Part shown: positions 7,061 to 57,383 of the stretch, in pieces
Numbering within the stretch: position 1 is the first letter of the stretch
Layout: each line of letters opens with the position of its first letter
Origin: Methylophaga sp.
GTDB lineage: Bacteria > Pseudomonadota > Gammaproteobacteria > Nitrosococcales > Methylophagaceae
Length of the DNA: 64,000 nucleotides
Reading direction: 5' to 3'
Assembly (NCBI GenBank): GCA_011053005.1
Contig: DRHW01000002.1
Location: 186,001-250,000, forward strand
Made by a program: the position numbers and the translations under genes
The notes under the pieces: model-generated
Told to the model about the DNA's origin: nothing
The model's input: the letters and a program-made list of their open reading frames with translations, nothing else
Database searches by the model: none

Positions 7061-7466
7061 CTTTATCCTCTGTTTCTTTTCAAACCATTCATAATGCTAA
7101 TATTTTTAATTATTTATATCGCTAACTCGTGACCATCTAGCTGATGATAGAGGCAGGATAATAATGCTTTATAACTAAAAATGACTAATTCTATTTTCAA
7201 AAATAACGATCATCCAATCGGCATTAATCAAATAATGCCTTTTAAAATACCATCACATGTCATTATTTAGTAACTATTTAATGTGTTATTCGATGGCACG
7301 ATAAAATTAATGCCTCTTAATCTGATGCGCATACTTATTTAGTATCTTAGTTTCAGGATAAATGAAGTCATCATGTTGACGTTCAATTTGTTAGTGATAA
7401 ACAACGAAAATTGATAATAAAATAAACATCCGTCTTTATCATCATAATTTATAAGCAGTGCAAATA
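7061..7466. other. intergenic region, 5' side of pgl
   Basis: About 400 bases of A+T-rich sequence separate pgl from the tRNA-Ser terminator. I find no convincing ORF on either strand, no tRNA and no strong hairpin. The pgl operon promoter must lie here, but I cannot place it with confidence. A small RNA cannot be excluded. Confidence 0.4.
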
Positions 7467-7498
7467 ATAAAGCCTCTTAAAAAAGAGGCTTTATTATT
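7463..7498 (-). terminator. intrinsic terminator after tRNA-Ser
   Basis: A perfect inverted repeat with 16-base arms (7463-7478 and 7483-7498) encloses a 4-base AAAA loop. The G+C core is GCCTCTT/AAGAGGC and the outer arms are A/T, so on the minus strand the stem runs directly into a T-rich tail. It lies 5 bases beyond the tRNA-Ser 3' end and would end the birA-coaX-tRNA transcript. The symmetry makes it potentially bidirectional. Confidence 0.85.
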
Positions 7499-7503
7499 CT
7501 GTT

Positions 7504-7593
7504 TGGCGGAGAGCGAGGGATTCGAACCCTCGATAGGGATAAACCTATACACACTTTCCAGGCGTGCGCCTTCGGCCGCTCGGCCAGCTCTCC
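7504..7593 (-). tRNA. serT: tRNA-Ser (anticodon GGA)
   Basis: Read on the minus strand, the sequence begins GGAGAGCTGGCCGAG and ends GCTCTCC-G-CCA. It has a 7-bp acceptor stem, encoded CCA, the GTTCGAATC T-loop and a long variable arm typical of a class II tRNA. The anticodon loop CTGGAAA gives anticodon GGA, which reads UCC and UCU. The anticodon region CACGCCTGGAAAGTGTG is nearly the same as in E. coli tRNA-Ser(GGA). The symbol is a convenience label. Isoacceptor naming differs between species. Confidence 0.95.
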
Positions 7594-7650
7594 ATAAGGG
7601 TGCAGAAGATTACATTAGATTAATCAATCTGACAAATATCATTAACGAGG

Positions 7651-8868
7651 CTATTGATGCAGCTCAACAGTTTCTGCGATTTCTACTTCTTTAAGTGATT
7701 CAACAGATGTTGTTTCTTCAACCACTTTAGCTATTTCAGCTACTTTTGGTTTTTCAACTACTTTTGGTTTTTCAACTGATTTTGTTTCTTTAACTGCTTT
7801 TGGTTTTTCGACTGCTTTTGCTTCTTCAACTGCTTTTGTTTCTTCAACTGCTTTTGTTTCTTCAACTGCTTTTGTTTCTTCAACTGCTTTTGTTTCTTCA
7901 ACTGCTTTTGTTTCTTCAACTGCTTTTGTTTCTTCAACTGCTTTTGGTTTTTCAACTGCTTTTGTTTCTTCAACTGCTTTTGTTTCTTCAACTGCTTTTG
8001 GTTTTTCAACTGCTTTTGTTTCTTCAACTGCTTTTGGTTTTTCAGCTGCTATTTTGTCATCAGCTCCTTGAGTTGTTTCAACTGCTTTTTTTTCTTCAAC
8101 TGCCTCTGGCTTTCTAGGCTGTCTATCACCTTGTCGAGCATAATAACCTAAGCCTTTCAAAACGATATCTGGATAGTGAGCAATAAATGAAGGTAATAAA
8201 GGCATAACAAGTTCGGCATCACCACCTGTAATAATGAAACGTATACGATTATTAAACTGCTCATTTAAATCATCAACGATACGTTCAAGACTTGCTGTGA
8301 CCATATACAAAGTACCGCATTGCACAGCGCTTTGAGTATTAACGGCTAAAGTTTTAAACTCTTTCTCTTCTATTACGTCAGTTAGATTACTAGTATTGCT
8401 AGTCAACGCATGCCGCATTAATGTGATGCCGGGTAAAATCATTCCGCCTTGATGCGCACCATATTTAGTCACTACATCAATCGTAATGGCCGTGCCACAA
8501 TCAATAATACACGTCGCTTGTCTAGCATGTTGTCGTGCTGCAATTAATGCTAACCAACGATCAACACCTAATTTATCAGCTTGTTGATAAGCATTGGTTA
8601 CACCAAAACGCTTTTGTTCGCTGCTAATAAATTTAGGGGTGATTTGCCACTTTTTTTCTGACCAATCTGTCAAATGTTCAGCAATTTTGTCTCCACCAAC
8701 ATTCGATACGAAAACTGAGTCAATGTCAGTCAGCTCTTTCCATTCATTGGTAAATGCAGTTTTGATGCCGGTTTTTTTACGATCAAAGCTATGTGATTCT
8801 GTAAATCGACCTGAATCTAACGTTGTCCATTTAATACGGGAATTGCCAATATCTACTAATAATTTCAT
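7651..8868 (-). CDS. coaX: type III pantothenate kinase with C-terminal hexapeptide-repeat tail
   Basis: CoaX carries out the first step of coenzyme A synthesis, phosphorylating pantothenate with ATP. Residues 1-245 are a complete type III kinase: LLVDIGNSRIKW (phosphate binding), GVDRWLALIAAR, CIIDCGTAITIDVV and IITGGDAELV. The usual family length is about 250, but this protein has 405 residues. The extra 160 residues are about 20 copies of a six-residue unit, mostly AVEETK or AVEKPK, highly charged and probably helical or disordered. It overlaps birA by 4 bases (ATGA), so translation is coupled. The kinase call is secure. The role of the tail is unknown. Confidence 0.93.
   Translation of the reverse strand: MKLLVDIGNSRIKWTTLDSGRFTESHSFDRKKTGIKTAFTNEWKELTDIDSVFVSNVGGDKIAEHLTDWSEKKWQITPKFISSEQKRFGVTNAYQQADKLGVDRWLALIAARQHARQATCIIDCGTAITIDVVTKYGAHQGGMILPGITLMRHALTSNTSNLTDVIEEKEFKTLAVNTQSAVQCGTLYMVTASLERIVDDLNEQFNNRIRFIITGGDAELVMPLLPSFIAHYPDIVLKGLGYYARQGDRQPRKPEAVEEKKAVETTQGADDKIAAEKPKAVEETKAVEKPKAVEETKAVEETKAVEKPKAVEETKAVEETKAVEETKAVEETKAVEETKAVEETKAVEEAKAVEKPKAVKETKSVEKPKVVEKPKVAEIAKVVEETTSVESLKEVEIAETVELHQ
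7654..8049 (-). repeat. 18-bp in-frame tandem repeat in coaX
   Basis: About 20 tandem copies of an 18-base unit make up this segment. The plus-strand consensus is close to TGTTTCTTCAACTGCTTT. The central copies (about 7840-7940) are nearly identical, while those at both ends have diverged, as expected for a repeat growing by slippage or unequal exchange. Because the unit length is a multiple of three, copy-number change keeps the coaX frame, and other frames also stay open through it. It is a coding minisatellite, not a CRISPR array: there are no unique spacers. Confidence 0.95.
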
Positions 8869-9668
8869 GATGCAAACCTAATACTAACGTGGCTATTCGA
8901 TAAGGTGTGCAATGTATTGTCATACTCATAGCGTAATTCGCCCCGCTCAGTAATGCCTCGGGCAATAACATGGAGAGTATCTTTATCGCTGATTAGGTTA
9001 ACGGAATGATTAGCAAGTGCATCATATTGCGGCCATTGTGGAAGAAAGTCAGTTAAACCGCGGTGTTGAAAGTGTTCTAATGTTGTGATCATATTTTGAA
9101 TTATTTTTCCTGCCAGCCCATTTCTACAGGGTATCTCAGTACAAAGCTGTTGAAGACTGGTGGTAGGTTGATGAATTTTATTTTTCGTAGCAGTTGGAAG
9201 CTTAAAGTTAAGGCCAATGCCAACGACAGTATTTTGATTTTTACCGAATCGTGATTCTACTAGAATTCCGGCGAGCTTTTGTCTTTTATATAACACATCA
9301 TTCGGCCATTTCAACTGTAAGTCATTGATTCCTTCAGTTTTGAGGGTTTCAATCAAACTAATTCCCACAGCAATACTAAGTCCTTCACTGACCGTTTCTG
9401 CGGGAAATGGCCAAAAAATCGATAAATATAAGTTGCCAACTGAAGGCGATTGCCATGGGTCACCTCGTCGACCTCGCCCCGCCGTTTGTGTTTCACTAAG
9501 ACAAATTGCTGGCGAAATCTGCCCTTCGCTAAAGCGTTGCCACAAAATGTCATTGGTTGAAGCTACGGATTGATGAATGAAAATATCGTCCAGTTTTCGG
9601 CGTGTATTGGGTTCAATGGCTGCTTCAATGGCGGTCAATGATAAAGGCTGAAAGTCGTGTATCGTCAA
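8865..9668 (-). CDS. birA: biotin--[acetyl-CoA-carboxylase] ligase, no HTH domain
   Basis: BirA joins biotin to the carrier lysine of acetyl-CoA carboxylase through biotinoyl-AMP. The catalytic domain is complete: SVASTNDILW, TAGRGRRGDPW (adenylate binding), LKWPNDVLY, KLAGILVESR and VVGIGLNFK. The protein has 267 residues, against about 320 for E. coli BirA. The roughly 60-residue N-terminal winged-helix domain that represses the bio operon is missing, because the ligase domain begins within the first 30 residues. This BirA should therefore be enzyme only. It is followed immediately by coaX, a common pairing. Confidence 0.93.
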   Translation of the reverse strand: MTIHDFQPLSLTAIEAAIEPNTRRKLDDIFIHQSVASTNDILWQRFSEGQISPAICLSETQTAGRGRRGDPWQSPSVGNLYLSIFWPFPAETVSEGLSIAVGISLIETLKTEGINDLQLKWPNDVLYKRQKLAGILVESRFGKNQNTVVGIGLNFKLPTATKNKIHQPTTSLQQLCTEIPCRNGLAGKIIQNMITTLEHFQHRGLTDFLPQWPQYDALANHSVNLISDKDTLHVIARGITERGELRYEYDNTLHTLSNSHVSIRFAS

Positions 9669-57046: not shown

Positions 57047-57062
57047 TATATTTGTGTATCGC

Positions 57063-57383
57063 TTATGGCAAATCAGGTAGATCTGCTGGCGCTTCTTTTA
57101 CTGTTTCTGTCATCGGTACTTTTGTAATACTGTCTACGGTATCTGTTTGACCAGAAAAGTAAGCTAGCGTTAGACTTGTTAAAAAGAAAATAGTAGCTAG
57201 AAGAGCACTGCTTCTTGATAAAAATGATGTCGAGCCTTGACTACCAAATACGCTTGATGATGCCCCACCGCCACCACCTAGAGCAGCAGCACCTGCATCA
57301 GCTCCTTTGCCATGCTGAATAAGGATCAAGCCAACTAACAGGAGTGAAACGACAATATGTAAAACAAGAATGATTGAATTCAT
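57063..57383 (-). CDS. secG: preprotein translocase subunit SecG
   Basis: SecG is the small SecYEG subunit that eases SecA cycling. The 106 residues have two membrane helices (about 3-22 and 56-76) joined by the conserved loop LILIQHGKGADAGAAALGGG and GASSSVFGSQGS. The C-terminal tail is Asp/Pro-rich. It follows tpiA by 18 bases. Confidence 0.94.
   Translation of the reverse strand: MNSIILVLHIVVSLLLVGLILIQHGKGADAGAAALGGGGGASSSVFGSQGSTSFLSRSSALLATIFFLTSLTLAYFSGQTDTVDSITKVPMTETVKEAPADLPDLP

Follow-up and report, generated by a model that had tools for sequence, protein, structure and literature searches.

A charged, variable C-terminal tail on the type III pantothenate kinase CoaX of Methylophagaceae, ending at a promoter-like site of tRNA-Ser

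Results

CoaX catalyzes the first step of coenzyme A synthesis. In Methylophagaceae, a family of marine bacteria that feed on methyl compounds, a charged, low-complexity C-terminal tail follows its kinase core in 37 of 38 distinct loci, and across the family its composition is kept while its sequence is not conserved. In the window, i.e., the whole 64,000-nucleotide stretch of Methylophaga sp. DNA that was analyzed, the tail is encoded largely by an 18-bp tandem array, and the 3′ end of coaX abuts or, in relatives, overlaps a promoter-like site of the neighboring tRNA-Ser gene. From these sequences we consider that the charged and probably disordered tail may be kept for a bulk property while its repeats drift by slippage, a reading to which we assign a probability of about 0.5.

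Kinase core and repeat tail of the window CoaX

The features of the locus, in window coordinates, are as follows.

7651..8868, minus strand: coaX open reading frame, type III pantothenate kinase plus C-terminal tail (405 aa; PF03309 and TIGR00671 above cut-off)
8119..8868, minus strand: kinase core, residues 1-250 (AlphaFold2 pLDDT, PDB relatives)
7654..8118, minus strand: C-terminal tail, residues 251-405 (composition, pLDDT)
7699..8103, minus strand: 18-bp in-frame tandem array, 22.5 copies, unit GCAGTTGAAGAAACAAAA / GCAGTTGAAAAACCAAAA (TRF)
8865..9668, minus strand: birA-type biotin ligase open reading frame (PF03099, 70.8 bits; TIGR00121, 177.1 bits)
7630..7635, minus strand: putative -35 box TTGTCA of tRNA-Ser, 15 bases past the coaX stop codon
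7607..7612, minus strand: putative -10 box TAATCT of tRNA-Ser, after a 17-base spacer (inferred from conservation)
7504..7593, minus strand: tRNA-Ser (GGA) (ARAGORN)

By profile match, the core is an intact-looking type III pantothenate kinase. PF03309 covers residues 3-199 (161.8 bits; cut-off, 24.7) and TIGR00671 residues 3-240 (128 bits; cut-off, 58.2); the score against the NCBIfam equivalog NF009866 was 275.2, below its cut-off of 360. Residues D6, G8, N9, D103, R104, and W105, which we take to belong to the catalytic region, are invariant across 41 aligned CoaX sequences. The PDB relatives 2f9t, 5b8h, and 4o5f align with residues 3 to about 245, and the upstream birA-type frame overlaps the coaX start by 4 bases. 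A search for type I pantothenate kinase that matched its controls found no match in the window's genome; the type II search matched nothing in its controls and is hence uninformative on this genome.

As a reading made earlier from the window's letters alone (the sequence-only reading) had claimed, kinase and repeats lie in one continuous frame, with no stop codon between them. The tail measures 155 residues instead of the 160 given there, and the interval 7654-8049 assigned to it leaves out its first 23 codons. It is rich in E, K, V, A, and T, lacks F, W, Y, and C altogether, and has a charged fraction of 0.46. The only tandem array that TRF reports in the 64-kb window, at 7699-8103, has a period of 18 and 22.5 copies as assembled, with 84% matches and 0% indels, which makes coaX the carrier of a coding minisatellite. 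For the tail DNA, identity at period 18 is 0.779, against a mean of 0.467 and a maximum of 0.546 in 2,000 codon shuffles. Both of the unit types proposed, AVEETK and AVEKPK, are present, but instead of about 20 such units there are 12 exact ones (9 and 3, respectively), the remainder having diverged; likewise, "nearly perfect" describes the middle of the minisatellite but not its diverged flanks. The array sits within a 286-kb contig, so that no contig break lies behind it. Used as a query, the tail had three matches in its own genome, all coaX, and across 29 genomes of the genera as grouped by the search tool every match with E below 0.001 was a coaX array or the end of a partner contig; another partner contig end (G026:C175) followed at E 0.00105. 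A Pfam LED_rpt identity was dropped for the tail, as the score against the LED repeat PF20854 (19.4 bits) fell below the cut-off of 59.

The final AlphaFold2 model, built on a 41-sequence alignment (A2; mean pLDDT of the single-sequence run, 37.2), predicts a confidently folded core and a disordered tail. Block means of pLDDT are mostly 93-98 up to residue 240, with dips to 61-85 near residues 151-180 and a value of 83 at 241-250, whereas after residue 250 they drop to 39-57 with neither helix nor strand. Predicted disorder together with high charge is the signature of an entropic bristle, and the suggestion that the repeats act as an entropic spacer agrees with this prediction, which would fit spacer and bristle alike.

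Distribution and composition of the tail

Of 36 family genomes searched with PF03309, CoaX was found in 32, the window's own among them. A scan of named genomes covered as close relatives M. aminisulfidivorans, M. sulfidovorans, M. muralis, M. lonarensis, and MAGs labeled Methylophagaceae; 12 of its 18 family loci duplicate genomes of the family set and 6 are additional, giving the 38 distinct loci. A look for the tail in other CoaX proteins, as had been proposed, thus found it nearly throughout the family, the exceptions being G031, which has none, and G029, with just 19 residues. Outside the family, a long tail occurred in 1 of the 62 loci of the named-genome scan (L073) and, in a class survey in which 239 of 276 genomes matched, in 1 of 20 long-frame genomes (G147), these 20 being part of the long frames among the matches listed. 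These counts bear out that CoaX usually ends near residue 250. That the tail is unusual for this enzyme holds outside Methylophagaceae, where it is rare, but within the family it is general, with differing units, and no peculiarity of one strain. The two outside cases, L146 (from G147) and L073 (MAG J048), carry independent A/E/P-rich C-terminal tails. Our literature search found no paper linking Methylophaga with pantothenate kinase, and among the partial records retrieved on type III pantothenate kinase none was titled for a C-terminal extension.

Tails of Methylophaga species are non-repetitive, charged, and of low complexity (29-89 residues), whereas the window's genus and its sister genus have in-frame arrays in which units of 6, 9, 18, or 36 bp recur in tandem. 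Depending on the species, the units read (VEA)n, (VET)n, (VES)n, (VDA)n, (ET)n, (ETAEVV)n, AVEETK, or (AVQPIE)n followed by (AVK)n; within the window's subclade, G029 is an exception to the array, as are G003 and G011 with their degenerate tails. Pooled over 37 loci (2,317 residues), the tails consist of 20.9% E, 16.5% V, 14.6% A, and 11.5% T, and F, W, Y, and C together account for 7 residues, compared with 8.3% of the core. Charged residues make up 25-47% of every family tail, with net charge per residue ranging from -0.33 to +0.19. Stop codons in the other two frames of the tail DNA amount to 2.7% and 12.5% (37 loci). A basic patch (KPRRS/KPRK/RPRRKK) is common to the Methylophaga tails L010, L025, L028, L057, L059, L062, and L065.

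Turnover of the arrays

Unit number and sequence turn over quickly in the window's subclade. In a species pair with 98.0% identical cores the tails measure 138 and 78 aa, and in a second pair, with cores 94.3% identical, 60 and 36 aa; the expected change of repeat number with the frame retained was thus found between close species. Every Ala in the repeat units seen is encoded by GCC in G004 and by GCT in its sister G021, so whole arrays were seemingly replaced after the two split. Of 31 tailed genomes, 8 have a contig that ends within the tail, against 0.30 expected from rounded contig counts (P = 1.8e-10). For five of these (G004, G010, G015, G025, and G026) we found a partner contig that ends in an array of the same kind and leads to tRNA-Ser, so the real arrays of the broken genomes are longer than shown.

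A one-base frame shift stops the tail of G018 (L037 / L167), with 24 perfect AVK units beyond the stop; it is either a real truncation or a sequencing error and, unless the latter applies, CoaX may do with a shorter tail. Rearrangements downstream of coaX are seen in L034 (G023) and L036 (G007), where no tRNA-Ser was found, and in L040 (G017), where tRNA-Ser is displaced.

Selection on the tail

Alignable tails are under purifying selection, weaker than that on the core. Four aligned pairs gave tail dS/dN values of 0.31/0.11, 1.58/0.62, 0.58/0.16, and 0.26/0.14, i.e., dN/dS of about 0.36, 0.39, 0.28, and 0.54 (combined Fisher p, 1.1e-5; a fifth pair, L025/L059, was omitted because dS was saturated), compared with about 0.04-0.07 for the cores of the same pairs. 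Since the non-repetitive Methylophaga tails are among those under purifying selection, the proposal of a neutral, fast-changing tag does not fit by itself. A neutral simulation of nonsense mutations over 22 terminal lineages, with distances from core dS, gave a joint probability of 3.8e-15 for the absence of stops, and the three non-array Methylophaga pairs alone gave about 2e-6 from the same numbers; the simulation ignores indels and array turnover, both of which are able to purge stops. Neutral persistence of the tail looks unlikely. Between neighboring units within arrays, pN/pS ranged from 0.43 to 1.38 and was mostly near 1 (1.38 in the window array), and values near 1 are the expectation without selection. 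On balance, what is kept is an open tail that is charged and non-aromatic, with hardly any constraint on its precise sequence or length.

The gene end and a promoter-like site of tRNA-Ser(GGA)

The proximity of the coaX 3′ end to the tRNA goes beyond the sequence-only reading. The coaX stop codon lies no more than 60 nt from tRNA-Ser in 24 of 25 measured loci, and the frame is therefore open over the whole stretch; in five more loci outside the 25, with a closed tail or no tail, no adjoining tRNA was matched. In the window, TTGTCA-17-TAATCT stands just past the coaX stop codon, followed by 13 bases and then tRNA-Ser. Methylophaga and two further genomes have a homologous site, TTGCCA-17-TA..CT; in all 11 LP-type genomes, TTG CCA encodes the Leu-Pro of LP(EE)AI, or of a variant thereof, at the C-terminus of CoaX. 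The tail-less G031 carries TTGCTA-17-TAATCT in non-coding DNA. The pattern written for the promoter-like site fits 25 of 32 rows and fails in 7, a descriptive count, as it was derived from these very sequences. A generic promoter scan does not list the tRNA-Ser site, because its -10 hexamer, a weak match, agrees with the consensus at just 3 of 6 positions. LPEEAI as a peptide motif was rejected, the same DNA being conserved in the sister genus with the stop codon upstream of it. Since the site is conserved even when non-coding, the constraint would most simply act on the DNA as a tRNA promoter, and the Leu-Pro codons are apparently the -35 box of the putative tRNA-Ser promoter. An origin of the tail from the gene downstream in G031 is unsupported; that 81-aa frame looks unrelated by eye.

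Further observations concern the surroundings of this site. Just beyond tRNA-Ser, at 7463-7498, we noted by eye a perfect 16-bp inverted repeat with a 4-base loop (aataataaagcctctt / aagaggctttattatt), likely the terminator of a birA-coaX-tRNA unit, although it is not among the sites listed by the terminator scan. In G025:C4 (L164 1-500), the promoter-like site and tRNA-Ser stand apart, with ~170 inserted nt between them whose ends are inverted (GGAAGCTCTGAT ... ATCAGATCTTCC), suggestive of the insertion of a small mobile element. A second gene end near a tRNA is found on the minus strand of the window at 57047-57180, where an open reading frame, presumably secG by gene order, ends immediately before tRNA-Leu(GAG).

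Discussion

In our preferred reading, a tail kept for a bulk property, the extension would have begun in the family ancestor, when the coaX frame came to reach the promoter of the neighboring tRNA-Ser(GGA). The result would be a disordered extension between two fixed points, the end of the core and the promoter, a stretch that slippage or unequal recombination may fill and refill with units. Selection would preserve an open frame and a soluble-looking product, charged and with almost no aromatics, for which exact sequence and length hardly matter, and the tail most probably acts as an entropic, solubility-type bristle or by excluded volume on the enzyme. A more far-reaching version, which we regard as distinctly unlikely, is that tail length serves as an evolvable rheostat: a self-expanding in-frame minisatellite pinned between the kinase and the tRNA-Ser promoter would keep producing variants of different length within populations. 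These would adjust how active, or how soluble, the one pantothenate kinase found is, and hence the CoA pool, without change of catalytic residues or promoter.

A serious rival, which we hold possible though short of probable, is that the tail is a tolerated by-product without benefit: the frame ran into the spacer, slippage lengthens it, and selection purges only toxic or sticky frames. The pN/pS values near 1 between array units, the lack of any conserved sequence among tails, the tail-less G031 and the 19-aa tail of G029, and the G018 frame shift would all be expected of such a by-product, but dN/dS of about 0.3-0.5 in alignable tails, the run of 24 of 25 measured tails to the tRNA with no internal stop, and the improbability of neutral persistence without turnover speak against it. 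Less probable again is that the tail serves specifically to tether the enzyme to, or let it interact with, for example, a partner, the membrane, or nucleic acid, in Methylophaga via the basic KPRRS/KPRK patch; this patch recurs in 7 of 9 aligned Methylophaga tails (it is missing from L063 and L064), whereas acidic tails of the (VEA)n type do without it, the unit sequence differs between sister species, and net charge per residue spans -0.33 to +0.19.

Two further alternatives concern the array as DNA or as data. The position of the array, directly upstream of the conserved promoter-like site, would suit an upstream promoter element for tRNA-Ser(GGA); nevertheless, we judge this role very improbable, given that array DNA varies by species while reading frame and residue classes stay, that units of 6 to 36 bp share no common site, and that tail-less G031 has the promoter-like site too, behind an unrelated frame. 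An assembly artifact is scarcely credible: arrays are known to disturb assemblies, according to the available part of PMC6868369, and 8 of 31 relatives break in the tail, but the window array is embedded in its long contig with the frame intact, tails recur in independent assemblies of relatives, and in the five broken genomes with partner contigs the same kind of array continues to tRNA-Ser.

The system matters because one well-understood enzyme occurs naturally with dozens of tails of different units, lengths, and charges. With this series, the open question of whether selection acts on bulk properties of disordered tails independently of sequence becomes directly testable. The system also offers a gene end apparently squeezed against a tRNA promoter, where LPEEAI, though seemingly a protein motif, makes better sense as promoter DNA.

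With known type III pantothenate kinases (PF03309, TIGR00671; PDB 2f9t, 5b8h) the window CoaX shares the core (1-245), the conserved residues, and the birA neighbor; these enzymes usually end 5-14 residues past VLxGL, whereas 155 tandemly repeated residues are added here. The comparisons that follow draw on the available parts of the cited sources. With bacterial coding minisatellites or VNTRs such as the staphylococcal SD repeats (PMC3324548), coaX shares in-frame units in multiples of 3 and fast change of copy number, but the enzyme that bears its array is metabolic and shows no indication of being secreted, and one site is refilled with different units family-wide. Phase-variable simple sequence repeats of Haemophilus (PMC2651432) and Neisseria (PMC5084427) are likewise slippage-prone arrays within genes; unlike these, the coaX units, 18 bp in the window and 6, 9, 18, or 36 bp in relatives, are all divisible by 3, so no on/off switching is expected and coaX is no contingency locus of that type. 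Entropic bristles and disordered solubility tags (PMC11066018) likewise add to a folded protein a disordered tail that is repetitive and charged, although the CoaX tail is natural and hypervariable, and its bristle likeness comes from sequence and predicted disorder. Conserved low-complexity regions of prokaryotic proteins (PMC6821194) are similarly charged segments kept within a clade, but CoaX keeps presence and composition, not sequence. The kinds themselves, coding minisatellite and disordered tail, are thus known; here they occur on a housekeeping enzyme, and the case would gain weight if tail length tunes that enzyme.
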